Positions 8,036 through 34,730 of a stretch of DNA of 38,995 nucleotides are shown here, piece by piece (position 1 is the stretch's first letter; every line of letters begins with the position of its first letter). A program made the position numbers and the translations under genes. The stretch is from Minisyncoccota bacterium (GTDB lineage: Bacteria > Patescibacteriota > Minisyncoccia > Phycocordibacterales > UBA9973): positions 1 to 38,995 of the forward strand of contig JAGORC010000005.1 of the NCBI GenBank assembly GCA_018063015.1, written 5' to 3'. The notes under the pieces are model-generated. The model searched no databases, had not been told where the DNA came from, and saw only the letters and a list, made by a program, of their open reading frames with translations.

Positions 8036-8041
8036 TATAAT
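8036..8041 (+). promoter_or_regulatory. leaderless -10 box of the flavocytochrome operon
   Basis: TATAAT ends exactly 6 nt before the ATG at 8048. It should drive both the ferric-reductase gene and the cytochrome b5 gene directly behind it. Confidence 0.6.
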
Positions 8042-8047: not shown

Positions 8048-9343
8048 ATGGAAAAAAGGAGAGACATGACAGGAATTATATTTATTGCAATTTTGCCAAC
8101 CATAGCTTTAGTCTTATGGCTTTTTTCTCCTGGAGTGAGTTTGGATTTTAAAGATAAATGGGACTTCTTTTTCTTCTTGGGAAAGGCGTTTGGGGTTGTT
8201 GGTATGATTATGTTTGCTATTTCGATGATACTTTCTGCTAAGTTTAAATTCTTAGAAGAATTCTTCTATGGGTTAAATAGAGTTTATATTAAACATAGCC
8301 AGATAGGGCAGATCGCGTTTATGCTGATGTTGTTTCATCCTATACTACTTTTGGCTGAATACACTGATTTAACTTTCGGGGGAGCTGTGGGATTCTTCTC
8401 CCTTGGAGGAAGCTTGGCTCAGAGCTTCGGAGTTGTGTCGCTTTATCTTATGATAATCCTCATCTTCCTTACTCTGTACATGAGACCCAAGTATCATATA
8501 TGGAAATGGACGCACAAGTTTATGGGGTTTGCATTCTTTTTTGCTGGGTTGCATGTATTTTTAATACCTAGTGATACTTCTGTGTTCTTGCCGTTACGTA
8601 TATATGTGCTTCTTATCTCAGGATTTGCAATTTATGCATTTACTTATCACACAATTCTCGGATTCATTACTAACAAGAAATATGTATATGTAGTCTCTGA
8701 TTTAAAAAACTTCGACAATATAGTAGAGGTTAGGCTTAGCCCAGTAGGTTCTAAAAAGATGGATTTTATTCCAGGACAATTTGCCTTCATATCATTTAGA
8801 GACAAAAAGATAGGCACAGAGAGCCACCCGTTCTCTATGTCTTCTGGTTTGAATGATAATACTGTTTCTTTCACAATAAAGAATCTGGGTGACTTCACTT
8901 CTAATTTAAGTAACTTAAAGATAGGAACAGAAGTTTATCTCGAAGGTCCGTTCGGTAAATTCTCATACAACGAGGCAGAATTTAAAAAACAAATATGGAT
9001 TGCTGGAGGGATAGGTATAACACCATTTCTAAGTATGGCTAAGTCTATACCTAGAGATAATGGATTCTCTGTAGATTTATACTACTGCGTAAGAGATGAA
9101 AAGGAAGCCGTCTATCTAAAAGAACTTTCTTCGCTCGAGAATCCAAGCTTAAATATAATTCCATTCTATTCGAATACAGAAGGATTTATTAATGCCAATG
9201 TTATAGATAAGAAATCAAACGGTATAAAAGATAAAAGCATATTTATTTGTTCCCCGGTCGCCATGCTTGAAACATTAAAAAGACAGTTTAGGATAAGTGG
9301 AATACCAGCTAATCTTATTCATTCTGAAGAATTTAGTTTATAA
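8048..9343 (+). CDS. ferric-reductase-type transmembrane flavocytochrome
   Basis: This belongs to the NOX/FRE-like ferric reductase superfamily, in which NAD(P)H electrons pass through FAD and two membrane haems to an acceptor on the far side. Six membrane segments are visible within residues 8-205. Histidine pairs lie at 83/97 and 156/169, spaced 14 and 13 residues as in two-haem family members. The FAD domain contains IPGQFAF and HPFSMSS (about residues 235-265). The NAD(P)-binding half has AGGIGITPFLSMA near 320 and ends with FICSPVAMLETL. The next gene starts 4 nt after the stop and encodes an anchored cytochrome b5 domain. The electron acceptor is unknown; metal reduction, superoxide formation and disulfide chemistry are all possible. 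Confidence 0.88.
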   Translation: MEKRRDMTGIIFIAILPTIALVLWLFSPGVSLDFKDKWDFFFFLGKAFGVVGMIMFAISMILSAKFKFLEEFFYGLNRVYIKHSQIGQIAFMLMLFHPILLLAEYTDLTFGGAVGFFSLGGSLAQSFGVVSLYLMIILIFLTLYMRPKYHIWKWTHKFMGFAFFFAGLHVFLIPSDTSVFLPLRIYVLLISGFAIYAFTYHTILGFITNKKYVYVVSDLKNFDNIVEVRLSPVGSKKMDFIPGQFAFISFRDKKIGTESHPFSMSSGLNDNTVSFTIKNLGDFTSNLSNLKIGTEVYLEGPFGKFSYNEAEFKKQIWIAGGIGITPFLSMAKSIPRDNGFSVDLYYCVRDEKEAVYLKELSSLENPSLNIIPFYSNTEGFINANVIDKKSNGIKDKSIFICSPVAMLETLKRQFRISGIPANLIHSEEFSL

Positions 9344-9347
9344 ATTT

Positions 9348-9890
9348 ATGAAATTAAAAAAGATTACATTAATATCGTTCATAGCTTTTCTTGGAGTGTT
9401 CGTGCTTCTCTTGTTTATAACACCTGCAAGAGAAATAACATTAAACAATAACACATCACAAGAAGACTTAGACCTAGAAGGCAAGCTCGAAAATATACTA
9501 GATATAGTAAGTCCAGAAGAAGGAGAACCTGTTCAAGTAGAGGAAAAGAAGGAAACAACCTCTACTCCTAAAACTACTACCACACCTACACCTACAACCT
9601 CGACAAAACCTACTACAACCAAACCTACAACTACAACTCCTACTAAAACCTCAACAAGAAAGACATTGTCTTCCACGGAAGTCGCCAAGCACTCCACCAG
9701 AGAAGATTGCTACTTAATAGTAAAGAATATTGTCTACGATGTTACTACTTATATAGACAAGCACCCAGGAGGGAAGAGTAAGATAGTAAATAAATGCGGG
9801 CAAGAATCCTCTTCTGCCTTTGCAGCTATTCACTCCAACTTCGCCTGGAACCTATTAGCTAAGTATTACGTTGCTGATTTAGTCAAGTAA
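9348..9890 (+). CDS. membrane-anchored cytochrome b5 domain protein
   Basis: The 180-aa protein has a Lys-rich start and one hydrophobic segment (residues 6-26), predicting an N-in anchor with the rest outside. An acidic stretch is followed by a long Thr/Pro/Lys linker (about 70-104). A compact cytochrome b5 domain fills 108-180. Its haem ligands are visible as His139 in HPGG and His162 in AIHS, spaced 23 residues as in the family. Cys121 and Cys150 could form a disulfide. An in-frame upstream ATG at 9297 is rejected because it lies inside the preceding gene and would add residues ahead of a clean signal anchor. It is probably co-transcribed with the flavocytochrome, suggesting that it carries electrons from the outer haem; this is inference. 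Confidence 0.85.
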   Translation: MKLKKITLISFIAFLGVFVLLLFITPAREITLNNNTSQEDLDLEGKLENILDIVSPEEGEPVQVEEKKETTSTPKTTTTPTPTTSTKPTTTKPTTTTPTKTSTRKTLSSTEVAKHSTREDCYLIVKNIVYDVTTYIDKHPGGKSKIVNKCGQESSSAFAAIHSNFAWNLLAKYYVADLVK

Positions 9891-9925: not shown

Positions 9926-10028
9926 CAAGGTAGACTTGTACCTTGATAATTTTGGTTTTGTTTAGTAAATCCTTCTGGAAGTCAGAATTGGTTTCTATGA
10001 GGATTTACTAAACTTTTTTAAAACCAAA
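9926..10028 (+). promoter_or_regulatory. structured 5' leader with nested inverted repeats
   Basis: A first hairpin pairs CAAGGTA (9926-9932) with TACCTTG (9939-9945). A larger one pairs TTTGGTTTT (9951-9959) with AAAACCAAA (10020-10028), and directly inside it GTTTAGTAAATCC (9960-9972) with GGATTTACTAAAC (10001-10013). A run of six T (10014-10019) is bulged on the 3' side. Within the loop TTCTG and CAGAA can also pair. The inner stem followed by six T could act as an attenuator, and the full stem as an alternative fold. No known riboswitch class is recognised. Confidence 0.55.
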
Positions 10029-10043: not shown

Positions 10044-10874
10044 ATGAAAAAGATCACCGCCATTATGACCGCGTTTGTTTTCTTTTGCGCATGTGCAACT
10101 GCACAAAAAAAAGAAAAATCCTATGAAAAGTTTTTCAGTGAAATCCAGGTAGGCCTGAACCTCGGGAAAAATAATATCGGGGTAAAAGAAAGTGCCATGG
10201 AGCTGAGCGCTAAAGGTATTTACGGATGGCTTTACTGGCAGTTTGCCAGAAACCAGCCATTCAAAAAGCCGATTGGCCAGTCATACGAAAAATCAACTCA
10301 GTTTTCACTGGGGTTCGGAAAAAGGGTAAACCTGGATCCGTACCAGATTAAATCTGAAGAAAAACGTATGGAGTTGGATTTTGGTTTTGGACCGAGCGCG
10401 GTTCTTATTCCGGAATACATGTCTATTCCCAAAAGGAGTAAGACGTATTACGGAGGATCAATGTTCGGGATCCTCGAAGGCAATCAGTTAAGAGCCGAGA
10501 TTTCGGCTTCTGTAATGACACTCCCGCCGAGAACACAGTATGAATGGAACAACAGCTTCACCTTCGGTGAGGTTGATGTTACTAAATTCTTTAACGGATT
10601 TGGTTTGGGTTTGAATTTCAGGCTTCGCTCTGTGAAGCAATCTGAAAAGCAGATTATGAACCAGCCGTTTAATGGCTACACCTATACGGAAAACCAGACA
10701 GCCATAAATCCGTATTTGTGTTACCAGGAGAGTCACTTCATTTTCCGTGCTGGGCTGGTACTGAAAAAGTACAAAAATTCCTCTGCGGACCTCAATAATC
10801 CGCAACCGAATTTCTGGGCTGAAAACTATCCCATTGGGTTTTCTTGTGGGATGATCGTAAATCTCAAAAATTAA
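10044..10874 (+). CDS. exported protein with Bacteroidota-like signal peptide, possible beta-barrel
   Basis: I do not recognise the family. The first 21 residues form a signal peptide ending in an ATAQ-type cleavage site common in Bacteroidota exported proteins. The rest (276 aa in total) has no membrane helix and contains many short alternating hydrophobic/aromatic stretches (for example FSLGFGKRV, GLGLNFRLRS, FIFRAGLVLKK), which resembles a small outer-membrane barrel. This fit is weak but notable, because a Patescibacterium is expected to lack an outer membrane. Codon use is visibly richer in G and C than the flanking genes. The next gene follows after 7 nt and encodes a lipoprotein, so they form a two-gene unit with its own promoter and terminator. 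Recent transfer is the simplest explanation; an assembly artefact must be excluded. Confidence 0.75.
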   Translation: MKKITAIMTAFVFFCACATAQKKEKSYEKFFSEIQVGLNLGKNNIGVKESAMELSAKGIYGWLYWQFARNQPFKKPIGQSYEKSTQFSLGFGKRVNLDPYQIKSEEKRMELDFGFGPSAVLIPEYMSIPKRSKTYYGGSMFGILEGNQLRAEISASVMTLPPRTQYEWNNSFTFGEVDVTKFFNGFGLGLNFRLRSVKQSEKQIMNQPFNGYTYTENQTAINPYLCYQESHFIFRAGLVLKKYKNSSADLNNPQPNFWAENYPIGFSCGMIVNLKN

Positions 10875-10881
10875 TTCCGAA

Positions 10882-11487
10882 ATGAAAGCAAAAATCTTTT
10901 TCGTAGCAACAGTTACTGTCGTTGCTAGTTTGGTAGGATGTTTTCCTGCTAAACAAGGTCAAAGGAGTGTCGATTTATTCGACTACTCCAAACTCGTGCC
11001 CATGCACGAGGACACCATCCTTAAATATGATGATTTCAATGCAGAATTAATCACTAATCCGAAGGTAGAATATTTCCTTTCTGATTCTGTGGTTCTGCAA
11101 AGAAAGAAATCCTATACTGAGGCTGGTGCTGTGGGTGATGGACGTATTTTACTCAAGGATGCATCTGAAACCGAAATGATAATCATTCCGAAATATTCAC
11201 GCGGTGAATGCTTCAAGATTGATTCATCCGAGGCTAGGATGTACGTCACGTTTAAAAAGCGTGGTGACACTGAGCACTATTTGGTGTTCGGTGGAAGTAA
11301 TTCAAAAAAGAATAAGGGTAAGTACGTACTGTTCACCATTGCAGGCAAAGACAGTGTTTCTTACGGAGGTCTCCGCTATAAGATTATTTCCGGAATCGGA
11401 AGTAATATCCTCTACAACCCTGAAGTATTCAGGGGTCAGGATAAAGTCTTGATTGAGGACGGCGTAGCACCTGTAAAAAGAAACTAA
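10882..11487 (+). CDS. predicted lipoprotein, second gene of the cassette
   Basis: The family is not recognised. The N-terminus is a lipoprotein signal with lipobox LVGC, so Cys20 should be lipidated and the protein anchored outside the membrane. The remaining ~180 residues are soluble, mixed alpha/beta in look and Lys/Asp-rich, with an SGIGSN stretch near the end. Like its upstream partner it has higher GC than neighbouring genes. Spacing of 7 nt and the shared terminator at 11509 imply co-transcription with the preceding exported protein, so the two products may work together at the cell surface. No catalytic motif is visible. Confidence 0.75.
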   Translation: MKAKIFFVATVTVVASLVGCFPAKQGQRSVDLFDYSKLVPMHEDTILKYDDFNAELITNPKVEYFLSDSVVLQRKKSYTEAGAVGDGRILLKDASETEMIIIPKYSRGECFKIDSSEARMYVTFKKRGDTEHYLVFGGSNSKKNKGKYVLFTIAGKDSVSYGGLRYKIISGIGSNILYNPEVFRGQDKVLIEDGVAPVKRN

Positions 11488-20676: not shown

Positions 20677-21093
20677 ATGAACAAACAAAATATTTTAAGA
20701 CTTCTTAGGTTTTCACTTGGTTTTATATTCCTCTGGGCATTTTTGGATAAAACATTTGGTCTCGGATTTGCAACAACAGAAGCTAAGGCCTGGATAAATG
20801 GTGGTTCACCAACACACGGATTCTTGTCTAACGCGGTTAAAGGCCCTTTTGCAGACTTCTTTCATAGTGTTGCGTCCAATCCAATGATTGATTGGTTTTT
20901 CATGGCGGGTTTGCTAATAGTAGGTCTTACTTTAATTTTCAATAAATATGTTAAATGGGGTTCGTATGTGGGAGCGGCTATGATGCTCGTAATATGGGTT
21001 TCAGCGCTTCCTCCAGAGAATAATCCTGTGATAGATGACCACATAGTTTATATGTTTGTATTTCTATATTTTGCCTTAGGTGGTAGGGATTGA
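20677..21093 (+). CDS. DoxX/DoxD-like membrane protein
   Basis: The 138-aa protein has about four membrane segments (roughly residues 8-28, 68-86, 94-110 and 120-136), with a conserved-looking RFSLGFIFLWAFLDKTFGLGF start and an AWINGGSPTHGFL loop. This fits DoxX-like proteins related to the large subunit of quinone-linked thiosulfate dehydrogenase, but DoxX-family members have varied roles. It could pass electrons to or from a quinone; no quinone-using enzyme is near. It has no partner gene in the window. The leaderless -10 box groups it with the housekeeping genes. Confidence 0.75.
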   Translation: MNKQNILRLLRFSLGFIFLWAFLDKTFGLGFATTEAKAWINGGSPTHGFLSNAVKGPFADFFHSVASNPMIDWFFMAGLLIVGLTLIFNKYVKWGSYVGAAMMLVIWVSALPPENNPVIDDHIVYMFVFLYFALGGRD

Positions 21094-21591: not shown

Positions 21592-23076
21592 ATGAAAGAC
21601 AAAATTCTTGGAAATAAAGAAATTGATAAATCGTTCACATTTGACGACGTTTTAGTTTTACCTAGATACTCAGAAGTGCTTCCTAGAGAAGTAGATGTTT
21701 CTACCTACTTAACAAAGAAAATTAAACTAAACATTCCTGTAATTTCAGCTGCCATGGATACTGTTACCGAAGCTCGCCTTGCTGTAGCCATAGCTCAGGC
21801 AGGAGGAATAGGTATAATTCACAAGAACATGCCTGTAGCTAAGCAAGTAGAAGAAATAAAATATGTTAAAAGATCAGAAAACAGCATAATCCAAGATCCC
21901 TACACACTTTCTCCTAGTCAAACCATACTAGAGACTAAAGAATTAATGCAAGAAAAGAATATAAGCGGAGTTCCTGTTGTAGATACTAAGGGTAAGTTAG
22001 TAGGAATAATAACTGGCCGTGATATGAGGTCAGAGAATGATTTATCCAAGAAGGTTGAGGAGGTCATGACCAAGGATGTTATTACTGGTAAGGATAACTG
22101 CACTTTAGCTGAGGCTAAGAAGATTCTTCTTCAACATAAAATAAAGAAGTTACCAATAGTTAATAAAAACGGAGTACTAACAGGGCTAATAACATACAAA
22201 GATATACAGAAAGAAGAAGCGAACCCTCATGCATGTAAAGATGAGAGAGGCAGACTTCGAGTAGGAGGTGCGATAGGTGCAGGTAAGGATGTATTAAACC
22301 ATGCTAAGGCACTCATAGAAGCAGGTGTAGACGTGCTAGTACTAGATAGTGCTCATGGACATTCTAAGGGAATAATAGAAGCCACAAAACAAATCAAGAA
22401 ATCATATCCCAAAGTTCAGCTAATAGTAGGAAATGTCGCTACAGGAGAAGGAGCTCTAGCCCTAGCTAAGGCAGGTGCTGATGGGATAAAAGTAGGTGTT
22501 GGTCCTGGATCAATTTGTACAACCAGGATAATAGCTGGTATAGGAGTTCCTCAATTGTCTGCAATAATAAACGCAAAAGAAACATTAAGAAAAAATAAAT
22601 TAGATGTACCAATAATTGCAGATGGAGGAATTAGATATAGTGGTGACATCGTTAAAGCTCTTGTAGCTGGAGCATCATCAGTAATGATGGGTTCACTTCT
22701 AGCTGGAACAATGGAGTCTCCAGGTGAAGAAGTCTTGTATGACGGTAGAAAATACAAAAGTTATAGAGGAATGGGATCTGTCGAAGCTATGAATCAAGGT
22801 TCTAAGGATAGATATTTCCAGGGAGGAGTATCTGAAGCATCCAAGCTTGTACCAGAAGGAATAGTAGGTATTGTTCCTTTTGCTGGAACTTTGTCAGAAA
22901 TTATATATCAGCATATTGGAGGATTAAGATCTGGAATGGGATATATTGGAGCAAAAAATATAAAAGATATGTGGAGCGCAAAGTTCACCAAAATAACAGG
23001 AGCAGGTAGAACTGAAAGTCATCCTCATGATGTAAAAATAACAAAAGAAGCACCTAATTATTCAAATTTTAAATAA
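21592..23076 (+). CDS. guaB: IMP dehydrogenase
   Basis: GuaB oxidises IMP to XMP, the committed step to guanine nucleotides. The catalytic cysteine is Cys309 in GPGSICTTR, with the mobile flap region after about 385. A pair of CBS domains (residues 95-205) is inserted in the barrel, the normal bacterial arrangement that allows nucleotide control. At 494 aa the length is typical. It starts the guaB-purA-guaA operon: purA follows 7 nt later. The final 20 residues are basic and Lys-rich. Confidence 0.97.
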
Positions 23077-23083
23077 AACAAAG

Positions 23084-24454
23084 ATGAAAAAAACAAAAGT
23101 CATACTAGGAGTCCAATGGGGAGATGAAGGTAAGGGTAAATTTATAGACTACTTGGTTACATCTTTAGGGCAAAGCGAGAAACTTCTTGTAGCTAGATTT
23201 CAAGGGGGTTCTAATGCTGGCCACTCAATACAATTTGGAGATAAATCTTTTGTATTTCATGCTATTCCTTCAGGAATACTCGAGAAGAATACAGACAACC
23301 TAGTAGGAGCTGGTGTTAACCTAGATGTTGTGTCTGTAAAAAAGGAAATAGAAGAAATACAGAGTATGGCTCCATGGTGGAAAGAAAATCTATATATAGC
23401 ACTTGAGGCTACTGTTGTGGTGCCGACAGCTAAATTAGTAGATAATGCTGAAGAAGCAGGTCGCGGAGCAAAGAAAATAGGCACAACAGGTAAAGCAATC
23501 GGGCCTACATATAGTGATTTCTACGCTAGAACAGATGATCTAGGAGTATATGAGGCAATTAATGAAGAAGTATTTCAAAAAAGATATAAAGAAATAAAGG
23601 AATCCCACCTAAGGACACTCAAAGGTAAATTTGGTTTTGAAGTTAATGAAGAAGAATTTAAAAATGAAGAGGAGAGATTCTTTGACGCTATAAAATTCCT
23701 AAGAACCCTTAAGACAGTTTCTTGTCACAGCTTTCTAGAAAATAAAATTAAAAATGGTTCACAAATATTAGCTGAAGGAGCTCAAGGTACGCTTCTAGAT
23801 GTTCGTTTTGGTTCAAGGCGAGATGTCACATCTTCATACACCACAGCTGGTGGAGTTTGTGTTGGACTAGGATTAGCACCATCTAAGATCGGTGATGTTA
23901 TCGGTATATGTAAGGCCTATGCAACTCGAGTAGGAAGTGGCCCATTTCCCACAGAGCTAGGAGGTAAGGCTGCAAGCACTTGGGCAGATACTCACAAGAG
24001 AGTAGATGAAGAAAATCTAAATTATGAAATAAACGATACTGACCCTCTTCACCAAGGAATTGCACTTCGAACAGTAGGTAAAGAATATGGAGCAACCACA
24101 GGTAGATTAAGGAGATGTGGTTGGCTTGATTTACCTTTATTGAAATATGCGATAGCCATAAACGGCGTTACAGAACTAGGAATAACAAAGTTAGATATAT
24201 TAGATGAATTGAAGGAAATCCCAGTATGTGTGGGATATGAAGGTAGAGATTATGTAAACATGAATGATTTAGAAAATGTAGTTCCAGTCTACAAGAAGCT
24301 ACCAGGATGGAAGAGTAGTACTAAAGGTTCAACTTCTTATGAAGATTTACCTAAAGAAGCTAAAGATTATATAGATTTCATAGAGAAGGAAACGGGTGTT
24401 CCTATTAAACTTATTTCAACTGGTCCTAAACGTGAAGAAATGATAAAGAGATAA
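23084..24454 (+). CDS. purA: adenylosuccinate synthetase
   Basis: PurA couples GTP hydrolysis to form adenylosuccinate from IMP and aspartate, the first step to AMP; PurB later in the window completes it. The GTP-binding loop QWGDEGKGK is near residues 10-18, with the NAGHSIQF motif near 44-51 and the IGTTGKAIGP block near 131. GTTGRLRRCGW lies near 340. At 456 aa it is about 25 residues longer than the common form. It is between guaB and guaA, so IMP use for both branches is under one transcript. Confidence 0.97.
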   Translation: MKKTKVILGVQWGDEGKGKFIDYLVTSLGQSEKLLVARFQGGSNAGHSIQFGDKSFVFHAIPSGILEKNTDNLVGAGVNLDVVSVKKEIEEIQSMAPWWKENLYIALEATVVVPTAKLVDNAEEAGRGAKKIGTTGKAIGPTYSDFYARTDDLGVYEAINEEVFQKRYKEIKESHLRTLKGKFGFEVNEEEFKNEEERFFDAIKFLRTLKTVSCHSFLENKIKNGSQILAEGAQGTLLDVRFGSRRDVTSSYTTAGGVCVGLGLAPSKIGDVIGICKAYATRVGSGPFPTELGGKAASTWADTHKRVDEENLNYEINDTDPLHQGIALRTVGKEYGATTGRLRRCGWLDLPLLKYAIAINGVTELGITKLDILDELKEIPVCVGYEGRDYVNMNDLENVVPVYKKLPGWKSSTKGSTSYEDLPKEAKDYIDFIEKETGVPIKLISTGPKREEMIKR

Positions 24455-24455
24455 T

Positions 24456-25976
24456 ATGAAAGATCCGCAATTCGTTATTCTAGATTTAGGTTCTCAATAT
24501 ACGGAGATTATAGGAAGGGAAATACTAGCTCTTGGATTTAAGAATATTATTTTGAAATCCAAAGATATAGAAAATTATTTAAAATCTCACCAAGTTAAGG
24601 GAATAATACTTTCTGGTGGATCTAAGAGTGTTTATGATTCTGATGCTCCTTATATATCTCCAGATATATTTAATCTAGGAGTGCCTATATTGGGAATATG
24701 TTTTGGAATGCAATATATTTCTTACAGGAAAGACAAAACATCGGTTCTTGGTAGTCAGAAATTAGGTAAAGAATATGGGCCCATAGAAGTAGAGATAGAA
24801 GATAGTCAATTATTTATTGGGTTAGATAAAAAATTAAAGGTTTGGGCAAGTCATGGAGATATCGTTGCTAAAGTTCCAGAAGGTTATAAGGTTATCGCAA
24901 AATCAGAAAACGTAATAGAAGCCATAGAAAACAAAGAGGAGAATGTATACGCTGTTCAGTTCCACCCTGAAGTTATAGAGACAGAAGATAATAATTTAAT
25001 TCTTAAAAATTTCACAGAGAAAATATGTGGAGCTATTCATGATTGGGAATCAAAAGATATAATAAAAAATATCCAAGACGAAGTAGTAAAAGAGATAGGG
25101 GATGGCATTGGAGCTATAGGTGTCTCTGGAGGGGTAGATTCGACCACGCTTGCAGCGGTGCTCTCTCCTGTTTTAAAAGAAAAACTTTTCTGCTTCTTTA
25201 TTGATACTGGAGGTATGAGAGAAGGTGAAGTTGAAGAAGTACAAGAAGCTTGTAAACAAGCAGGTATAAATTTGCATATCATAGATGCAAAGAAAGAATT
25301 CTTAGAAAATCTAAAAGAAGTAATAGACGCAGAAGAGAAGAGAAGAAAGTTTAAAGAAGTATATGCTCCTATTTTCAAGAAAGTCATAAAAGAAAATGGA
25401 ATAACTCACATAATGCAGGGAACTCTAGCTACTGACTTGATCGAATCAGGTCATAAGGGTATGGCAGCAACTATAAAATCTCATCACAATGTTGGTCTTG
25501 ATTTCGGAATACAAGAGCTTATGCCATTTCAGAAATTATTCAAACATGAAGTGAGAGCTATTGCTCGAAATATAGGACTACCTAAGGCTATAAGCGAGCG
25601 AAAACCATTTCCAGGGCCTGGATTATATGTTCGAGTAGTAGGGACAGAAATAAATGAAGGTATTTTAAACAAATTAAGAACTGCAGATAAAATCGTAAAC
25701 GATATTCTAATAAAAGAACCTTTTTACGGCGGGATATCACAGGTAGTGGTAGCTATATTAGGCTCTAAAACAGTTGGGGTGCAAGGGGACGGCAGAAGCT
25801 ATGAATACCCAGTAGTTGTTAGATGTGTTTCTACAAGTGACTTTATGACAGTTCGTGGATTTGAAATTCCAAGTGAGATAAGAAAAAAGATAATTTCTGA
25901 AGTGACTAAACATGGCTTCAATAGAGTATTCTTCGACGAGACACCTAAGCCTCCGGCAACAACTGAACTAGAATAA
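24456..25976 (+). CDS. guaA: GMP synthase (glutamine-hydrolysing)
   Basis: GuaA aminates XMP to GMP using glutamine and ATP. The glutaminase domain (about residues 5-190) has the nucleophile Cys in GICFGMQY near residue 83 and the QFHPEV histidine/glutamate near 170. The ATP-pyrophosphatase domain begins with the P-loop SGGVDSTT near 223. The C-terminal dimerisation domain ends with the usual PPATTELE. At 506 aa it is normal. It sits 1 nt after the purA stop and ends the first purine operon. Confidence 0.97.
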   Translation: MKDPQFVILDLGSQYTEIIGREILALGFKNIILKSKDIENYLKSHQVKGIILSGGSKSVYDSDAPYISPDIFNLGVPILGICFGMQYISYRKDKTSVLGSQKLGKEYGPIEVEIEDSQLFIGLDKKLKVWASHGDIVAKVPEGYKVIAKSENVIEAIENKEENVYAVQFHPEVIETEDNNLILKNFTEKICGAIHDWESKDIIKNIQDEVVKEIGDGIGAIGVSGGVDSTTLAAVLSPVLKEKLFCFFIDTGGMREGEVEEVQEACKQAGINLHIIDAKKEFLENLKEVIDAEEKRRKFKEVYAPIFKKVIKENGITHIMQGTLATDLIESGHKGMAATIKSHHNVGLDFGIQELMPFQKLFKHEVRAIARNIGLPKAISERKPFPGPGLYVRVVGTEINEGILNKLRTADKIVNDILIKEPFYGGISQVVVAILGSKTVGVQGDGRSYEYPVVVRCVSTSDFMTVRGFEIPSEIRKKIISEVTKHGFNRVFFDETPKPPATTELE

Positions 25977-26002
25977 AAATAATCCGTCATTTCTGACGGA
26001 TT
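25975..26002 (-). terminator. terminator of the 103-aa minus-strand gene
   Basis: AATCCGTCA (25981-25989) and TGACGGATT (25994-26002) form a 9-bp stem with a TTTC loop (GAAA on the minus strand). The T-rich tail is only on the minus side, so it mainly ends the minus-strand gene starting at 26338. The same hairpin may weakly slow guaA transcription. Confidence 0.75.
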
Positions 26003-26026
26003 ACTACCTCCCATAAAGGGGGCGAA

Positions 26027-26338
26027 TTACTTTTTAAGTGACTTGAGTGTGTTCAAGACCTTTCTTATAGTCTCAACTTCTTCCTGAAGAGAATCACTTC
26101 TCCGATACTCTTCTGAGTTTAACTTCTCAAGCAATACTTCCTGTAAAGCTTGATGATAATCTACGCAAGGTATGGATGAAACTGAGAAAAGGCTTAATAC
26201 ACCCTCAAATACTTCAGAAGTGGTCTCGAATGTCTTAAAGAATGGATAAGCAACCTTCTCCTCAAATACACGCTTAATCCATAAAACCCACTCATCCTTC
26301 TTGAAGTAATACAAATCACTACTGATTTCCATTTGCAT
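26027..26338 (-). CDS. small orphan protein, 103 aa
   Basis: The family is not recognised. It is a soluble-looking, mostly helical protein with aromatic-rich segments in its first half (SSDLYYFKKDEWVLWIKRVFEEKV) and a Glu/Lys/Leu-rich C-terminal helix (EEVETIRKVLNTLKSLKK) that could be a short coiled coil. One cysteine is at about residue 58. A second ATG at 26332 is an alternative start. It is a stand-alone minus-strand unit that separates guaA from purL, with a promoter back-to-back with that of the next small gene. Confidence 0.65.
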   Translation of the reverse strand: MQMEISSDLYYFKKDEWVLWIKRVFEEKVAYPFFKTFETTSEVFEGVLSLFSVSSIPCVDYHQALQEVLLEKLNSEEYRRSDSLQEEVETIRKVLNTLKSLKK

Positions 26339-26363
26339 TGTGCAATTTTTAAAACCAACTAAA

Positions 26364-26391
26364 CTATTACAATTTTATATAAAAATGTCAA
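26364..26391 (-). promoter_or_regulatory. promoter of the 103-aa gene at 26338
   Basis: On the minus strand TTGACA (26386-26391), a 16-nt spacer and TAATAG (26364-26369). Its -35 is back-to-back with the -35 of the plus-strand gene. Confidence 0.5.
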
Positions 26392-26395
26392 TAAA

Positions 26396-26424
26396 TTGAC
26401 CTGAGTTGCTATAAGTGGTACTTT
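26396..26424 (+). promoter_or_regulatory. promoter of the 94-aa gene
   Basis: TTGACC (26396-26401), a 17-nt spacer and TACTTT (26419-26424). The two divergent -35 boxes form an inverted repeat around TAAA (26392-26395). Confidence 0.5.
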
Positions 26425-26449
26425 AAAGGTAGCAAACATCGATTTTTGT

Positions 26450-26466
26450 AACATAAAATTTATGTT
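26450..26466 (+). promoter_or_regulatory. palindrome abutting the 94-aa gene start
   Basis: AACATAAA and TTTATGTT are perfect inverted arms around one A, and the last base touches the ATG at 26467. It may be an operator or an mRNA hairpin that controls initiation. Confidence 0.4.
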
Positions 26467-26751
26467 ATGAACAAAGTTCATTATATAGTGGTAACAAACC
26501 ACGACATGGGAGGTTCAGGAGCGTTTGATCATTTATCTAATATTATTCTTAGAAATGCCAGTGATTACCTGGCGTTAGAGAAGGAAGTCAGAGAATTATT
26601 TTCCAAACGCAAAGATGCAGCAGGTTTCAAAAACTGCTCACTTACAATCATGCCAGCTCCAAAAGAGTTTCAAACAACAGGAGGGTTGGGAGTCTATCCT
26701 GGTTTAAATTTTATCCTCCCGGAAAAAAAGGAAGCAGCGGAAACAGCTTAA
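26467..26751 (+). CDS. small orphan protein, 94 aa
   Basis: The family is not recognised. The start is hydrophobic (KVHYIVVTN) without a signal-peptide pattern, followed by HDMGGSGAFDHL and a charged helix (EKEVRELFSKRKDAAG). The C-terminal part has TIMPAPKEF and GGLGVYPGLNF, and ends in a Glu/Lys/Ala-rich tail. It could be a small soluble alpha/beta protein. It is a stand-alone plus-strand unit with its own promoter, a palindrome touching the start codon and a hairpin terminator, and it precedes purL. Confidence 0.65.
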   Translation: MNKVHYIVVTNHDMGGSGAFDHLSNIILRNASDYLALEKEVRELFSKRKDAAGFKNCSLTIMPAPKEFQTTGGLGVYPGLNFILPEKKEAAETA

Positions 26752-26755
26752 GAAC

Positions 26756-26798
26756 ATGGGCCTCTTTGTTGAAAAACAAGGAAGCCCATTAAATTTGT
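26756..26798 (+). terminator. hairpin terminator of the 94-aa gene
   Basis: A stem of about 15 bp (26756-26789) with a GAAA tetraloop: ATGGGC at the base pairs with GCCCAT, interrupted by one mismatch and a G-T pair. The T tail is weak (TAAATTTGTCTT). Confidence 0.75.
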
Positions 26799-26817
26799 CT
26801 TAAATAAAAAATTAGTA

Positions 26818-26823
26818 TATTAT
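26818..26823 (+). promoter_or_regulatory. -10 box of purL
   Basis: TATTAT ends 7 nt before the purL ATG at 26831. This is the likely start of the purL-Q-F-N-D transcript. Confidence 0.45.
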
Positions 26824-26830
26824 CAATAAC

Positions 26831-29794
26831 ATGATTTCGCGCATATATGTAATCCCAAAAGTTGAAGATGTACGGGAGAAATTGTATAAAAATTCATGGG
26901 AAAGCATAAGCGCGTCTATAAAAATATCCAAGGTAAGAGTAGTGTCCTCATATCTAATAGAAGGAGATTTGAAAGATGGTGATATTATAAAAATCGCAGA
27001 AGCATTAACTAACAAAAATATAGAAGAGTATTCAGTAAATAAGATTCCTGAGTTGAGCTTCGATTATATTATAGAGATTGGATTTCTACCTGGGGTGACC
27101 GATAACGTAGGACACACAACAGAAGATACTATATGTGATTTATTACATCTAAAACAGAAAGATTCTGTGAAAGTTTATACATCACAAGTTTTCCTAATTA
27201 ATGGAAAGGTTAAGGATGTAGACATTAAATCCATATCATTAGCACTACACAACCCTCTCATTGAGAGGGCTCTTGTTTTAAATCCAAGTGATGTAAAGAA
27301 ATGGAACCTACCACTACAAACTCCGAAAGTAAAATTAAGCAAAAAAACAGATGTTGTTGAAATCTCACTTGACCTAGAAGATAAGAAACTAGAAGAGATA
27401 GGCAAATTAGGAATAAAGGATAAGGATGGAAGTTATAGAGGCCCTCTAGCATTGGATCTAAATTCAATGAAGGTAATAAAAGACTATTTCAATAAATTAA
27501 AAAGAAATCCAAACGACATTGAACTTGAATCACTAGCTCAGACATGGAGTGAACACTGCAAACATACGATATTCGCCAACCCAATAGATGAGGTAGCTGA
27601 TGGTTTATATAAAAGATATATAAAAGGAGCCACCAATCTTATAAGGAAGCAAAAAGGTAATAAAGATTTCTGTGTATCTGTATTCTCCGACAATTCAGGT
27701 GCTATAGCATTTGATAAAGATTATTTGATTACTCACAAGGTAGAAACTCACAACAGCCCCTCTGCGCTCGATCCATTTGGTGGAGCTATAACAGGTATTG
27801 TGGGGGTTAATAGAGATTGTTTAGGATTTGGCCTAGGAGCTAAGCCTGTGGCTAATCTGTATGGATTTTGTTTCGGTAATCCATATGACAAGAGAGCTCT
27901 ATATAGAGACAAAGAATTGAGGAATAAAATGCTCTCACCTAAGAGAATAATGGATGGAGTTATCAAAGGGATAAATTCTGGAGGAAATTGTTCCGGTATT
28001 CCAACAGTTTCTGGATTTATTAAATATGATGATAGATATAGAGGTAAGCCTTTAGTTTTTGCTGGAACAGTTGGACTTATACCTAGAAAGATCGGAAATA
28101 AATTATCTCATGAGAAGAGTGCTATGAAAGGGGATTATGTTGTCGTAATTGGAGGAAGAGTTGGAGCAGATGGAATACATGGAGCAACATTCTCTTCTGT
28201 TGTTATGGATTCATCTTCTCCAGCTACGGCAGTACAGATAGGAGACCCAATAACAGAGAAGAAATTCTCTGACGCTTTAGTAAAAGAAGCAAGAGATATG
28301 AATTTATATACAAGCATCACTGATAATGGAGCTGGGGGGCTTTCTTGTTCGGTAGCAGAAATGGCAAAGGAGTGTGGTGGAGCTATAGTAAATCTCGAAA
28401 AAGTTCCACTTAAATACCCTAACATGGAGCCATGGCAGATATGGATTTCAGAATCTCAAGAGAGAATGACCTTATCTGTTCCAAAAGATAAATGGTTAAC
28501 TTTTAAAAATTTAATGAATAAAAGGGGAGTAGAAGCCACAGTTATAGGAGAATTTAATAACTCTAAAAACATGACTGTAAAATGGAACGGTAAAAAGATA
28601 ATGGAAATCCCATTAGACTTCCTACATGATGGTTTACCTAAACAACATTTAACTACTAAGAAATTTATTCCAGATATTTCAGAACCAATCCTAAAAAGTA
28701 AAACAAACCTAACACAAGATTTAGAGATTTTATTAAAAGATAAAAATATTGCTGGGCACTCCTTTGTTTCTTCCCAGTATGATCATGAGGTTCAGGCGTC
28801 TTCTGTTATAAAGCCAGTAACAGGTAAAGGCAGAATAAATACAGATGCTCAAGTTTTCCGTCCTATATTAAGTTCAAAAAAAGGAGTAATACTTTCTACC
28901 TCAACTTATCCTTCTTATGGAGATATCTCTACTTACGATATGTCCATCTGTGCTATAGATACAGTTGTAAGAAACTCTATTTGTGTGGGAGGTTCTATTT
29001 CTAATCTAGCAATATTAGATAACTTCTGTTGGTGCTCATCCAACGAAGAAGAAAGGCTCTGGCAACTACACGAAGCCCTTAAAGCTTGCTATGACGGAGC
29101 TACTTTCTATGGAACACCTTTTATCTCTGGTAAAGATAGTATGTTTAACGACTTTAAAGGCTATGACGAGAAAGGAAATTCAATCAAGATATCTGTTCCA
29201 CCAACACTTCTAATATCTTCTATTGGAGTTATAGATGATGTGTATAAAACCATTACACCAGAATTCAAGAAAAAGGGAGATGTAATTTACCTTCTAGGAG
29301 ATACAGATAATGAACTAGGTGGAAGCGAGTATTTCAAAATGATTTCAAACAACAATACGAGCAAGATAGGAACAATAACACCTAAGGTAGACTTAGAAAA
29401 AAACATTAAAACCTACAAAGCACTAGAGAATGTAATCAGTAAAAACCTCATAGATAGCGCTACACCTATAAATTCAGGTGGACTTGCTGTTGCATTAGCA
29501 AAGAGTGCAGTAGGGGGTATGTTGGGATGTGAAATATCTATCAAAAATATAAAAGGAGGTGCGAAAGAGGCTTATCAGAAACTTTTTTCAGAAAGCCAAG
29601 GAAGGATTATTGTTTCTGTAAGTCCTAAGAATTTGAAAAAATTTGAATCATTAATGAATAAAATTTCTTATTCAAAAATTGGCAAGGTGTTAAGTACCTC
29701 AGCTTTTAGTATTTCTGATAGGACTAAAGTAGTTAATACGGATATAAATAAATTAAAGAAACTTTATCATGATTTTTCTATAAAAATGCAATGA
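26831..29794 (+). CDS. purL: phosphoribosylformylglycinamidine synthase, PurS-PurL part
   Basis: PurL makes FGAM from FGAR, ATP and glutamine-derived ammonia. The N-terminal ~155 residues hold two PurS-like halves (IYVIPKVEDVREKLY and EIGFLPGVTDNVGHTTED), and the two AIRS-type ATP-binding/catalytic halves fill the rest, with the AQTWSEHCKHTIF signature near 236 and HKVETHNSPSALDPFGGA near 302. In the large-type enzyme (about 1,200-1,300 aa) a glutaminase is fused at the C-terminus. Here the protein stops at 987 aa and the glutaminase is the separate downstream purQ gene, which overlaps it by 4 nt (ATGA). Function is well supported; the split is unusual. Confidence 0.95.
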   Translation: MISRIYVIPKVEDVREKLYKNSWESISASIKISKVRVVSSYLIEGDLKDGDIIKIAEALTNKNIEEYSVNKIPELSFDYIIEIGFLPGVTDNVGHTTEDTICDLLHLKQKDSVKVYTSQVFLINGKVKDVDIKSISLALHNPLIERALVLNPSDVKKWNLPLQTPKVKLSKKTDVVEISLDLEDKKLEEIGKLGIKDKDGSYRGPLALDLNSMKVIKDYFNKLKRNPNDIELESLAQTWSEHCKHTIFANPIDEVADGLYKRYIKGATNLIRKQKGNKDFCVSVFSDNSGAIAFDKDYLITHKVETHNSPSALDPFGGAITGIVGVNRDCLGFGLGAKPVANLYGFCFGNPYDKRALYRDKELRNKMLSPKRIMDGVIKGINSGGNCSGIPTVSGFIKYDDRYRGKPLVFAGTVGLIPRKIGNKLSHEKSAMKGDYVVVIGGRVGADGIHGATFSSVVMDSSSPATAVQIGDPITEKKFSDALVKEARDMNLYTSITDNGAGGLSCSVAEMAKECGGAIVNLEKVPLKYPNMEPWQIWISESQERMTLSVPKDKWLTFKNLMNKRGVEATVIGEFNNSKNMTVKWNGKKIMEIPLDFLHDGLPKQHLTTKKFIPDISEPILKSKTNLTQDLEILLKDKNIAGHSFVSSQYDHEVQASSVIKPVTGKGRINTDAQVFRPILSSKKGVILSTSTYPSYGDISTYDMSICAIDTVVRNSICVGGSISNLAILDNFCWCSSNEEERLWQLHEALKACYDGATFYGTPFISGKDSMFNDFKGYDEKGNSIKISVPPTLLISSIGVIDDVYKTITPEFKKKGDVIYLLGDTDNELGGSEYFKMISNNNTSKIGTITPKVDLEKNIKTYKALENVISKNLIDSATPINSGGLAVALAKSAVGGMLGCEISIKNIKGGAKEAYQKLFSESQGRIIVSVSPKNLKKFESLMNKISYSKIGKVLSTSAFSISDRTKVVNTDINKLKKLYHDFSIKMQ

Positions 29795-30552
29795 AGAAAA
29801 TAAAATCAAAACCTAAAATAATAGTAATGTCAGGGTATGGTCTTAATTGTGAAGAAGAGACTAAATTTGCTTTTGAGTCTTCAGGTGGTAAGGCAGATAT
29901 AGTTCACATAAATGACCTTATAGATAACCCTAAGATACTTTCTAAGTACGACATACTCGCATTTCCAGGAGGATTTTCTTATGGAGATGATACTGGTAGC
30001 GGTAAAGCTTATGCAAATAAATTTAAAAATCATTTATCTAAAGAACTAGAAAGTTTCTTAGAAAGAAATACTTTAGTTATTGGTATATGTAATGGCTTTC
30101 AAATTATAACTAATTTAGGAATTCTGCCAGGTGCATTAACTCACAACAAAGGTGGTAAATACATAGATAGATGGGTTGATTTAAAAGTTGAGAAAAATAG
30201 TAGTCCATGGTTAAAGGGTATTAAAGAAATATCTCTTCCAATAGCTCACGGAGAAGGTAGATACATTATAGGTAAGGATTACAGCAAGCTAAAGAAAGAA
30301 GGCAATATAGCTCTTACTTATACAAAAGGTGAGATATCTAAATTTCAAAATTTAGAAGCTAATCCAAATGGAGCAGAACATGACATAGCGGGTGTCCTGG
30401 GATATAATGGAAGAGTATTTGGCCTTATGCCTCACCCTGAAAGAGCGATGTTTTTTCATCATCGTCCGGATTGGCAATTTCAAAAGAAGAAGAGTGAAGA
30501 AGGTATGGGTCTTCAAATTTTTAAAAACGCAATAAACTATTTTAAAAGATAA
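29791..30552 (+). CDS. purQ: phosphoribosylformylglycinamidine synthase glutaminase subunit
   Basis: PurQ hydrolyses glutamine to supply ammonia to PurL. It is a class I amidotransferase of 253 aa: nucleophile Cys in VIGICNGFQI near residue 99, IAHGEGRY near 150 and the His/Glu pair in LMPHPERAM near 213. The long GRVFGLMPHPER...HHRPDWQF tail resembles the C-terminal glutaminase of large-type PurL rather than the usual small PurQ. Its ATG overlaps the purL stop (ATGA), and purF follows after 6 nt. It probably assembles with PurL as a heterodimer. Confidence 0.94.
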   Translation: MKKIKSKPKIIVMSGYGLNCEEETKFAFESSGGKADIVHINDLIDNPKILSKYDILAFPGGFSYGDDTGSGKAYANKFKNHLSKELESFLERNTLVIGICNGFQIITNLGILPGALTHNKGGKYIDRWVDLKVEKNSSPWLKGIKEISLPIAHGEGRYIIGKDYSKLKKEGNIALTYTKGEISKFQNLEANPNGAEHDIAGVLGYNGRVFGLMPHPERAMFFHHRPDWQFQKKKSEEGMGLQIFKNAINYFKR

Positions 30553-30558
30553 ATTTTT

Positions 30559-31956
30559 ATGGAAGAACTAAAAGAAAAGTGCGGTATTGTTGGTATTTAT
30601 GGGAAAGATATGGAGGTAGCTAGGTTTGCCTTTTTTTCTTTATTCGCTCTTCAACACAGAGGACAGGAAGCTTCAGGTATAACAACAAGTGATGGAAATA
30701 GATTATATACTCACAAAGGAGCTGGCTTGGTTGCTCAGGTTTATACTGAAGACGCCATAAAGTCTCTCTCAGGACACATAGCGATAGGACACAATAGATA
30801 CTCAACCTCAGCTGGAGGAGCACTTGCTCATGCCCAACCTGTAATAGACGAAGAAGGAACTTTCGCTCTTGCCCATAATGGAAATCTTCCTAGCGTTACA
30901 CACATAGAAGAATTTCTAAAATCAAAAAATATTTCTATAGAAAATAGATCAGACTCTGAATTAGTTTTTGATGCTGTGAATTTTTATTTAAAAGAAGGGA
31001 AATCTCTAAAAGATGCTGTACGAGAAGTTTATCCGTTGATTACAGGAGCATTCTCTATGGTAATGATGACAAAGGATACATTAGTAGCAGTAAAGGACGC
31101 ACATGGAATGCGTCCGCTTTGTTTAGGAACTATTGGTGATGGATATATTGTCACTTCAGAAACCTGTGCTCTTAAGACCATAGGAGCAACTATTGTGAGA
31201 GAAGTAGGTGAAGGAGAGATGCTTGTTATAGATGAAAACGGCTTAGAAAGTCTGCAGTTGGTAGATCCTAAGCCAAGTCACGATATATTTGAATATGTTT
31301 ATTTTGCTCGACCAGACAGTGTGTTGGGAGGAAAACTTATTTATGATGTAAGGAAAAATTTCGGCAAAACTCTCGCTAAAGAATTTAAAGTTGATGCTGA
31401 TATAGTGGTGCCTGTTCCAGATACAGCGGTACCTGTGGCTATAGGATTCTCGCATGCTTCTAATATTCCAATGGAGATGGCTTTAGTCAAAAATAGATAT
31501 GTTCACAGAACGTTTATAGAACCAGATCAAGATTCAAGAAGGAAGAGTGTTGCTTTGAAGCTTGTTCCATTACCTGAAATAATAGAAGGAAAGAGAATTG
31601 TACTAATCGATGACTCTATCGTTAGAGGTAATACTTGTAGAAAATTAGTTAAAACTTTCTTTGATTCTGGAGCGAAAGAAGTTCATATGCTTGTCTCATC
31701 ACCACCTGTACGTTTCCCTGATTTCTACGGAATAGACACACCTAAGCAAGAAGAATTAATAGCCTCTCAGAAAACAGTAGAGGAGATACGAGAATATCTA
31801 GGAGCTACATCACTGCATTTTCTATCCCTTGAGGGCCTTATATCGTCAATTGGCCTACCTAAGGAGCATTTATGCACGTCATTCTTCACAGGAGAATACC
31901 CTATAGATATATTAGAAAGAAAAAGTGAAGTAAGCTATGATGTACCAAAAGATTAA
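30559..31956 (+). CDS. purF: amidophosphoribosyltransferase
   Basis: PurF makes phosphoribosylamine from PRPP and glutamine, the first committed step. Cys8 must become the N-terminal nucleophile, so a 7-residue propeptide (MEELKEK) should be removed by self-processing, as in the Bacillus subtilis type. The PRPP motif VLIDDSIVRGNT is at 348-359. Three of the four iron-sulfur ligands of B. subtilis PurF appear replaced here: Asp242, Asp388 (RFPDFYGID) and Phe442 in CTSFF, leaving only Cys439. So the enzyme probably lacks the cluster. At 465 aa it has normal length. It overlaps purN by 20 nt. Confidence 0.95.
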   Translation: MEELKEKCGIVGIYGKDMEVARFAFFSLFALQHRGQEASGITTSDGNRLYTHKGAGLVAQVYTEDAIKSLSGHIAIGHNRYSTSAGGALAHAQPVIDEEGTFALAHNGNLPSVTHIEEFLKSKNISIENRSDSELVFDAVNFYLKEGKSLKDAVREVYPLITGAFSMVMMTKDTLVAVKDAHGMRPLCLGTIGDGYIVTSETCALKTIGATIVREVGEGEMLVIDENGLESLQLVDPKPSHDIFEYVYFARPDSVLGGKLIYDVRKNFGKTLAKEFKVDADIVVPVPDTAVPVAIGFSHASNIPMEMALVKNRYVHRTFIEPDQDSRRKSVALKLVPLPEIIEGKRIVLIDDSIVRGNTCRKLVKTFFDSGAKEVHMLVSSPPVRFPDFYGIDTPKQEELIASQKTVEEIREYLGATSLHFLSLEGLISSIGLPKEHLCTSFFTGEYPIDILERKSEVSYDVPKD

Positions 31957-32557
31957 ATCAAAGCTCGTTATGCTTATCTCTAATACCGGAACAGGAAGCA
32001 ACCTTCAGGCAATTATAGATGGCATAAATACAAACAGAATAAATGGAGAAATTATTGCAGTTGTGTCAGATACAGCTGACGCCCTAGGATTAGAGAAAGC
32101 CAGGAAGAATAATTTACCAATTGAAATGTGTAAATCCAAGGAAGAACTTCTTCCACTTTTAAATAAGTTAAATCCGGATTATATATGTCTTGCTGGTTGG
32201 AAACAAATAATACTAGATGAAGTTATAAATTCATTTACCGATAAAATATTGAATTTACACCCAGGATTAATTCCAGACGACGTAGAGGGTGTTGTATTAA
32301 ATCCTGATCAAACTACCGCCCTCTGGAATAAAGGCAAGCTTACAGATAAAGCCATTCAGAATTTCATAGACAATAAATCAACCTTTGCAGGTTCATCTAT
32401 ACACTTTCTTACTTTAAATTTTGATTTCGGACCTGTTCTAGGTAGAGTATTTGAAAAAATAGAGATAGGAGACACAATAGAATCTCTATATTCTAGATTA
32501 AAAAAGAGAGAGAATGAATTATATATACAAGTTTTAGAAAAATTAACACATGAATAA
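31937..32557 (+). CDS. purN: phosphoribosylglycinamide formyltransferase
   Basis: PurN moves a formyl group from 10-formyl-THF to GAR. The substrate-binding TGSNLQAIIDG is near residues 18-29 and the catalytic Asn/His pair lies in LNLHPGLIP near 103. The conserved Asp is in NFDFGPVLGR near 163. Compared with common PurN there is an insertion of about 20 residues after the NLHPGLIP motif (DDVEGVVLNPDQTTALWNKG). The start overlaps purF by 20 nt and the stop overlaps purD by 8 nt. A second Met follows directly at residue 2. A divergent family member, still well recognisable. Confidence 0.88.
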   Translation: MMYQKIKSKLVMLISNTGTGSNLQAIIDGINTNRINGEIIAVVSDTADALGLEKARKNNLPIEMCKSKEELLPLLNKLNPDYICLAGWKQIILDEVINSFTDKILNLHPGLIPDDVEGVVLNPDQTTALWNKGKLTDKAIQNFIDNKSTFAGSSIHFLTLNFDFGPVLGRVFEKIEIGDTIESLYSRLKKRENELYIQVLEKLTHE

Positions 32558-33836
32558 GAAAAATATTTTAATCATAGGTGGTGGAGGAAGGGAGCATGCC
32601 ATAGGATGGAAAATAAAACAATCTCCAAAGGCTGGAGAAATATTTTTTGCTCCAGGAAATGGCGGGACATCTTCACTTGGAACCAACTTAGATATAAAAG
32701 CGACAGAGGTAGAGAAACTTTTTAATTTTGCAAACGATAATAAGATTGATTTAACTCTAGCTATTCCTGATGATCCACTTGCTCTAGGTATTGTTGATAA
32801 GTTTGCCAAAGAAGGATTAAGGATATTTGGGCCGACTCAAAATGCTTCAAAACTCGAATGGTCTAAGGCGTTTGCTAAAGATTTCATGCAAAGGAACAAT
32901 CTTCCCACTGCTAAGTTTAGAATCTTCACTGCTTACAAAGAAGCCAAGGACTATTTATTAAGTCATAAACTTCCAGTGGTTGTGAAGGCCAGTGGTCTAG
33001 CTCTCGGTAAAGGGGTGCTCATATGTAATTCTCACGAAGAAGGATTGAAAGCATTAGAAGATATTTTAATTAAGAAAGTATTTGGTGAAGCAGGTAAAGA
33101 AGTTGTAATTGAAGAATTCCTAACAGGGCCTGAGATATCGACTCATGCTTTCTCCGATGGTAAAAACTTTTCCTTTTTTCCAACAGCCCAAGACCACAAA
33201 AGGATTGGTGAAAACGATACAGGATTAAATACAGGAGGAATGGGAACGATCGCTCCACTACCTTTTGTAAATAATGAAACCATTGAGTACATAAAAAAAG
33301 ATATAGTTGTTAGCACATTAGATGGAATGAGAAAAGAGAATAATCCATTTTCAGGAGTCTTATATCCAGGATTAATGATGACAGAAGATGGGCCGAAGGT
33401 GCTTGAATATAATGCTCGTTTTGGAGATCCAGAAACCCAAACATATATGAGATTGCTAGATACTGATTTGATAGATATTTTAGAAGCTTGTGTTGATCAG
33501 AAACTTTCAGAAATAAAAATAAATTGGAAGCCTGTATCTGCTTGCACAATCGTCCTTGCATCAGGTGGTTATCCAGAAAATTACGAAAAAGGCAAACTAA
33601 TATCCGGTATAGCTGAAGCGGAGGAATATGATGATGTTATTGTCTTTCATGCAGGTACGTCTAATAAGGATGGGCAATTCTTCACCAATGGAGGGCGTGT
33701 ACTTGGAGTTACTGCTACAGCAAATAATCTAGAAGAAGCTTTAGCTAAAGCATATAAAGCAATTTTAAATATATCTTTCGAGGGGATGCAATATAGGCGC
33801 GACATAGGCAAGAAAGCTTTGTCATTGATAAAGTAG
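32550..33836 (+). CDS. purD: phosphoribosylamine-glycine ligase
   Basis: PurD joins phosphoribosylamine and glycine with ATP. The N-terminal loop GGGGREHAIGWK is near residues 9-20. The ATP-grasp domain includes LPVVVKASGLALGKGVLI near 138-155, GTIAPLPF near 232 and the LEYNARFGDPETQ metal-binding motif near 281. At 428 aa it is full length. It overlaps purN by 8 nt and ends the purL-Q-F-N-D run; a small orphan gene then separates it from purE. Confidence 0.96.
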   Translation: MNKKNILIIGGGGREHAIGWKIKQSPKAGEIFFAPGNGGTSSLGTNLDIKATEVEKLFNFANDNKIDLTLAIPDDPLALGIVDKFAKEGLRIFGPTQNASKLEWSKAFAKDFMQRNNLPTAKFRIFTAYKEAKDYLLSHKLPVVVKASGLALGKGVLICNSHEEGLKALEDILIKKVFGEAGKEVVIEEFLTGPEISTHAFSDGKNFSFFPTAQDHKRIGENDTGLNTGGMGTIAPLPFVNNETIEYIKKDIVVSTLDGMRKENNPFSGVLYPGLMMTEDGPKVLEYNARFGDPETQTYMRLLDTDLIDILEACVDQKLSEIKINWKPVSACTIVLASGGYPENYEKGKLISGIAEAEEYDDVIVFHAGTSNKDGQFFTNGGRVLGVTATANNLEEALAKAYKAILNISFEGMQYRRDIGKKALSLIK

Positions 33837-33853
33837 ACCTTTTATAGTAATCT
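33825..33853 (+). promoter_or_regulatory. promoter of the 71-aa gene
   Basis: TTGATA (33825-33830), a 17-nt spacer and TAATCT (33848-33853). The -35 lies within the last codons of purD; the leader is about 40 nt and A/T-rich. Confidence 0.4.
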
Positions 33854-33900
33854 AGCGTTGTAATTTCGTACACATTAACTAACTATAAAAATCTTAAGCC

Positions 33901-34116: not shown

Positions 34117-34136
34117 ATCACTACTCTTAAATGAGC

Positions 34137-34184
34137 AAAAAGGGTGTCTGTCTTCTGTAGACAGCGCCCTTTTTTTATTTTTTT
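34137..34184 (+). terminator. intrinsic terminator of the 71-aa gene
   Basis: AGGG plus GTCTGTC pairs with GACAGC plus CCCT around a short loop (34141-34170), with A-rich sequence before and a T-tract after (34171-34184). The purE -10 box begins at the last T. Confidence 0.88.
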
Positions 34185-34189
34185 AAAAT
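34184..34189 (+). promoter_or_regulatory. leaderless -10 box of purE
   Basis: TAAAAT exactly 6 nt before the ATG at 34196. A second TAAAAT (34192-34197) is 7 nt before an alternative ATG at 34205. Confidence 0.45.
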
Positions 34190-34195
34190 GTTAAA

Positions 34196-34729: not shown

Positions 34730-34730
34730 T

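Follow-up and report, generated by a model that had tools for sequence, protein, structure and literature searches.

A NOX-type flavocytochrome and a tethered cytochrome b5 as a probable electron-export unit in a Minisyncoccota bacterium

We found two adjacent genes in a Minisyncoccota bacterium that probably form an electron-export unit, in which electrons would pass from NAD(P)H through FAD, an inner haem and an outer haem to a cytochrome b5 domain held outside the membrane. The genes lie in a stretch of 38,995 nucleotides of contig JAGORC010000005.1, referred to here as the window. The computed points that carry this reading are the identities of the two genes, the conservation of their ligands, their adjacency, their co-divergence and the presence of other exported carriers in the slot beside the NOX gene. 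In the proposed mechanism, the NOX-type protein would oxidise NAD(P)H in the cytoplasm, and electrons would move from FAD to the inner haem (H83/H156) and on to the outer haem (H97/H169). Direct transfer to the b5 haem (H139/H162) would follow, after which the b5 domain, on its flexible tether outside, would hand electrons on one at a time to an acceptor on the far side of the membrane. The original prediction from this DNA had described a two-haem NOX/FRE-type protein with an anchored b5, and this part stands, together with the adjacency of the genes and the outside position of the b5, but its haem pairing and its promoter do not. The two genes are indeed separated by 4 nt and share the plus strand (Table 1).

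Table 1. Coordinates of the gene unit and its features in the window.
Feature	Position	Strand	Details
TATAAT hexamer (weak candidate for a -10, transcript then leaderless)	8036-8041	+	6 nt before ATG
NOX-type flavocytochrome	8048-9343	+	431 aa; FAD/NAD(P) dehydrogenase domain following six hydrophobic segments (~residues 4-207)
His83 codon, predicted inner-haem ligand (with His156)	8294-8296	+	Kept in 49/49 homologues; aligned to SpNOX H69
His97 codon, predicted outer-haem ligand (with His169)	8336-8338	+	49/49 homologues
His156 codon, predicted inner-haem ligand (with His83)	8513-8515	+	46/49 homologues; Q or M in the other three
His169 codon, predicted outer-haem ligand (with His97)	8552-8554	+	49/49 homologues
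FAD motif HPFS, residues 260-263	8825-8836	+	HPFS/HPFT in 47/49 homologues; fits bacterial NOX filter (PMC5676040)
NAD(P)H motif GGIGITP, residues 320-326	9005-9025	+	Fits bacterial NOX filter (PMC5676040)
Anchored, probably exported cytochrome b5 protein	9348-9890 (ATG to stop)	+	180 aa
Predicted N-terminal membrane anchor, ~residues 5-25	9360-9422	+	Hydropathy only; KD maximum 2.97, after basic MKLKK N-terminus
Thr/Pro-rich tether, ~80 residues	9423-9671	+	
Cytochrome b5 domain	9675-9881	+	Pfam Cyt-b5; predicted haem ligands His139 (9762-9764) and His162 (9831-9833)
Cys121 codon, first half of proposed disulfide	9708-9710	+	30/30 partner b5 proteins; aligned to 1cxy Cys
Cys150 codon, second half of proposed disulfide	9795-9797	+	30/30 partner b5 proteins; aligned to 1cxy Cys
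Terminator-like hairpin downstream of gene 2 (weak)	9926-9945	+	Consensus scan only

The product of the first gene matches the Pfam families Ferric_reduct (E 6.5e-10), FAD_binding_8 (E 9e-10) and NAD_binding_1 (E 3.4e-9), and its best PDB matches, 8qta, 8qt6 and 8qq7, belong to the SpNOX family (E ~2e-37, residues 50-425 covered). Bacterial NOX proteins are recognised by an FAD motif H[PSA]F[TS][LIMV], an NADPH motif and four histidines arranged as two His-X12/14-His (PMC5676040). In gene 1 we find HPFSM at residues 260-264, GIGITP, and the spacings H83-X13-H97 and H156-X12-H169, together with about six transmembrane helices predicted from hydropathy, and by these published sequence filters the protein is classified as a bacterial NOX. 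The four histidines had been numbered correctly in the original prediction, but their assignment to haem pairs 83/97 and 156/169 was wrong. In SpNOX the inner haem is held by H69 (TM3) and H129 (TM5) and the outer haem by H82 or H83 (TM3) and H142 (TM5) (PMC11031084, PMC11564096), and because the window histidines align with these ligands, the predicted pairs are H83/H156 for the inner and H97/H169 for the outer haem. Furthermore, the protein has basic residues at its N-terminus as well as in loops 62-85, 146-155 and 205-215, but none in loops 103-130 and 172-182, a positive-inside pattern that we count in favour of electron export, the topology being predicted from hydropathy.

The second gene carries a Pfam Cyt-b5 match above the cut-off (E 1.3e-19), the only such match in this genome (G000), and the ligands named in the original prediction, His139 and His162, are the right residues for a predicted bis-His b5 domain. 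Its position outside the membrane, which had also been predicted, is now better supported by features of the protein family: N-terminal hydrophobic anchors are present in 96 of 100 b5 proteins, and Cys121 and Cys150 co-occur in 106 of 109 b5 domains, a near-invariant pair that would form a disulfide. Additionally, the genome encodes a homologue of VKOR, an enzyme of disulfide formation, which fits the oxidation of exported thiols. Both cysteines within the aligned part of the bacterial b5 structure 1cxy match Cys121 and Cys150, and 1cxy is reported to contain a disulfide. The insertion of 1cxy before the sixth ligand is shared with some partner b5 domains, for example that of G012; 1cxy is a chain of 90 residues, whereas the window b5 is anchored on a long tether, and to our knowledge 1cxy has no link to a NOX. 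The tethers of partner b5 proteins differ in length, with a median of 45 residues, and the NOX-partner proteins of L117, L118 and L119 each carry two consecutive b5 domains, strung like beads along a tether.

Conserved adjacency in relatives, which the original prediction had proposed as a check and whose lack would have counted against it, was found in most NOX-bearing genomes of the order, well above chance expectation. Among the 397 genomes surveyed there, 38 have a full-length NOX gene, and in 25 of these a b5 gene lies within 1 kb, on the same strand in every case (25/25), 13 times downstream and 12 times upstream. A b5 occurs anywhere in the genome in 29/38 NOX-bearing genomes against 60/359 others (Fisher p 8e-14 over the 397 genomes, shared ancestry not removed). 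In a wider set of 96 NOX loci from the phylum, enriched for the window's own order, the neighbour is a b5 at 42 loci, ApbE at four, a cupredoxin at two and none of these at 48. A b5 partner is thus not obligatory: 13 of the 38 NOX genes of the order have none within 1 kb, and at half of the 96 loci no recognised carrier adjoins the NOX gene.

Where the two genes are paired, they also diverge together. Across 42 pairs the Mantel r between NOX and b5 is 0.565, against a highest value of 0.236 in 5000 permutations (shared ancestry not removed), and for pairs below 50% NOX identity it is 0.477, where no permutation exceeded 0.287. The NOX and the b5 of G000 both group with those of G015, G743, G468, G316 and G364; the window NOX clusters with NOX proteins of distant orders and not with those of the same-genus genomes G012 and G021, and the window b5 does likewise. 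This shared grouping suggests that the pair was inherited or transferred as a unit. Upon comparing gene orders, the b5-before-NOX and b5-after-NOX arrangements fall mostly in separate NOX groups, which is consistent with several pairings or rearrangements. Individual loci depart from the pattern: in G057 H156 is lost and the b5-like domains are weak, and in G291 a stop interrupts the b5 region.

The b5 proteins without a NOX fall into other groups, many of them beside DoxX-like or other small membrane proteins. Among the anchored b5 genes away from NOX (L095-L114, L135-L174), 21 of 60 have a DoxX-like neighbour and 14 of 60 another small membrane protein, perhaps a second exported-b5 unit. The window itself holds a 138-aa membrane ORF (20677-21093, plus strand) that is unlinked to the b5 gene and whose weak similarity to DoxX stays under the Pfam cut-off.

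Around the pair, the order topA - NOX - b5 - dprA is common to G000, G015 and L044. Two ORFs on the plus strand at 10044-11487, with GC ~41%, separate the b5 gene from dprA in the window; they encode a signal-like protein of 276 aa and a lipoprotein-like protein of 201 aa, neither of which has a Pfam match. Since dprA directly follows the b5 gene in G015 and L044, this segment looks like an insertion in the present genome. The -10 box under which the original prediction had placed both genes is unproven: a promoter scan gave no acceptable -35/-10 pair at this hexamer, and TATAAT occurs 27 times on the plus strand of the window. If the promoter were real, the mRNA of the unit would be leaderless. 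Farther along (21592-38100, plus strand), ORF reading reveals a long purine synthesis run of guaB, purA, guaA, purL, purQ, purF, purN, purD, purE, purM, purC and purB, which is notable in such a small genome.

The b5 is not the only carrier found beside this NOX. A cupredoxin-like protein directly precedes the NOX gene in L082 (G148) and L217 (G529), the former with a Pfam Cupredoxin_1 match (E 3e-13) and the latter assigned by similarity to the L082 protein. ApbE adjoins the NOX gene in L087 (E 4.5e-30), L225, L226 and L227, and a gene for a small anchored protein lies between the two or next to them; this protein has no Pfam match and is labelled FMN-carrier-like because of its position beside ApbE. 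This swapping of carriers is the best hint that the neighbour of the NOX carries electrons outside. In the NOX loci that have neither b5, cupredoxin nor ApbE, a Pfam scan of the neighbours gave no other common redox family. We also observed a MAPR/PGRMC-like b5 with the Tyr-type motif beside the NOX gene in L187, L188, L189, L190 and L212, with response regulators nearby in several of these loci. As a broader and tentative idea, which we consider rather improbable as a whole, Patescibacteria may fit one NOX chassis with swappable exported carriers (b5, tandem b5, MAPR-like b5, cupredoxin, flavin). Built on scavenged haem, such units would give cells that have no respiratory chain a minimal outlet for their electrons, perhaps into a neighbouring cell.

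ORFs of ~500 aa that match the NOX model only at residues ~200-430 were taken to be other FNR flavoproteins and left out; some of them look like an NQR/RNF-like type with ApbE. In L012 and L013 we noticed FNR-domain membrane flavoproteins with lengths of 506-520 aa, and an ApbE-like ORF upstream of the L012 flavoprotein suggests the NQR/RNF-like type. Beyond chromosomes, relatives of the NOX protein were found in 110 plasmid records, with 27-29% identity among the matches listed. In four cases from other phyla the neighbours were a c-type cytochrome, PepSY proteins, a Fur regulator with a Dyp peroxidase, and nothing obvious, and none of the four had a b5 beside the NOX relative. The b5 domain search matched one plasmid, and viral contigs gave three distant matches.

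The original prediction expected organisms of this type to lack a respiratory chain and haem synthesis, and the genes searched for agree: neither ferrochelatase nor COX1 above the cut-off was found in 53 NOX-bearing genomes, nor cytochrome bd in 41 genomes. Completeness is 97.8%, so that a gene could, with low probability, have been overlooked. Judged from these genes, the cell appears unable to make haem, barring an unrecognised ferrochelatase-free route, and without ferrochelatase any haem in use would therefore come from outside unless such a route exists. TspO was considered as a linked haem factor and dropped, being present in 201/397 genomes of the order and not found in G000. If the proposed transfer works, reduced cells that apparently lack haem synthesis would spend scavenged haem on electron export.

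The dependence on external haem, if haem is used, also bears on a different and unlikely reading, namely that the pair serves to handle haem or iron: the exported b5 would capture haem, and the NOX-type protein would reduce surface haem or Fe(III) for uptake. The absence of ferrochelatase from the 53 genomes, the haem-binding nature of b5 domains, the ferric-reductase-type fold that Pfam assigns to gene 1 and the plasmid NOX relative beside Fur and Dyp peroxidase all fit this. However, no iron or haem transporter was found beside the window pair, the exchange of b5 for cupredoxin or FMN carriers suits electron transfer and not haem capture, and SpNOX reduces ferric iron slowly (PMC11564096). 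Fe(III) as the acceptor, raised among the checks of the original prediction, likewise found no support in the window, where no acceptor gene is linked to the pair.

Still less probable is that the NOX acts mainly as an oxidase, making superoxide or consuming O2 outside, with the b5 as an accessory that modulates or detoxifies. SpNOX does produce superoxide (PMC5676040), terminal oxidases were not found as described above, and in L090 and L226 the unit has peroxiredoxin genes close by, but this linkage is confined to few loci. Co-diverging and interchangeable one-electron carriers adjoining the NOX suggest a protein acceptor instead, and SpNOX, which has no convincing O2 site, reduces cytochrome c directly and has an exposed outer haem; its authors suggested a protein acceptor (PMC11564096). 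That the two genes work independently and only happen to lie together in an inherited or mobile block is highly improbable. The shared topA - NOX - b5 - dprA site is what inheritance alone would give, but both gene orders occur, the pair is found at many unrelated chromosomal sites, the strand is always the same (25/25), and other exported carriers occupy the slot beside the NOX. Electron export through the pair remains the preferred reading. The literature on SpNOX-type bacterial NOX proteins names no established physiological acceptor (PMC11031084, PMC11564096), and the conserved, co-diverging b5 is a concrete candidate protein acceptor for this family.

Upon comparison with known systems, gene 1 shares its domain order, four haem histidines and FAD and NAD(P)H motifs with SpNOX and the bacterial NOX family (PMC5676040, PMC11031084, PMC11564096); no b5 partner has been described for SpNOX, whereas a b5 gene is the conserved neighbour of the window NOX. 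In MsrQ-like flavinylation systems an exported carrier is thought to be fed by a transmembrane di-haem protein that in many cases ends in a NAD domain (Meheust 2021, PMC8238504). The window pair resembles them in joining a predicted di-haem membrane protein to a probably exported carrier, but that carrier is a b5 haem domain in place of an ApbE-flavinylated FMN domain, and no ApbE or FMN-binding gene was found among the window ORFs adjoining the pair, which sets it apart from MsrQ-like flavinylation. Nor was the MsrP molybdoenzyme gene of MsrPQ recognised among the window ORFs. The loci with ApbE and a small anchored protein (L087, L225, L226, L227) do resemble MsrQ-like systems; flavinylation is underrepresented in the candidate phyla radiation (Meheust 2021, PMC8238504).

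The closest known arrangement is a reconstructed CPR operon which, as summarised in PMC10093951 from a 2021 preprint (doi 10.1101/2021.11.17.468889), brings together a MAPR-like b5 (cytb5MY) and two other b5 proteins with TSPO, a putative ferric reductase and a two-component element. The original statement that no such system had been described in Patescibacteria was therefore too strong. Going by that summary, both cases combine a ferric-reductase-type protein with b5 in Patescibacteria, but the window has one of each, its single b5 being bis-His, and lacks the MAPR-like b5, TSPO and regulator; neither a MAPR-like (Tyr-ligand) b5 nor TspO was found anywhere in G000. L187, L188, L190 and L212 partially match the operon layout as summarised. 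Since it lacks the MAPR-like b5 and TSPO, the window unit is a stripped two-gene variant of the reported CPR ferric reductase/b5 operon and not a new system, and if electron transfer from the NOX to the b5 works as proposed, it would tie that operon to a mechanism.
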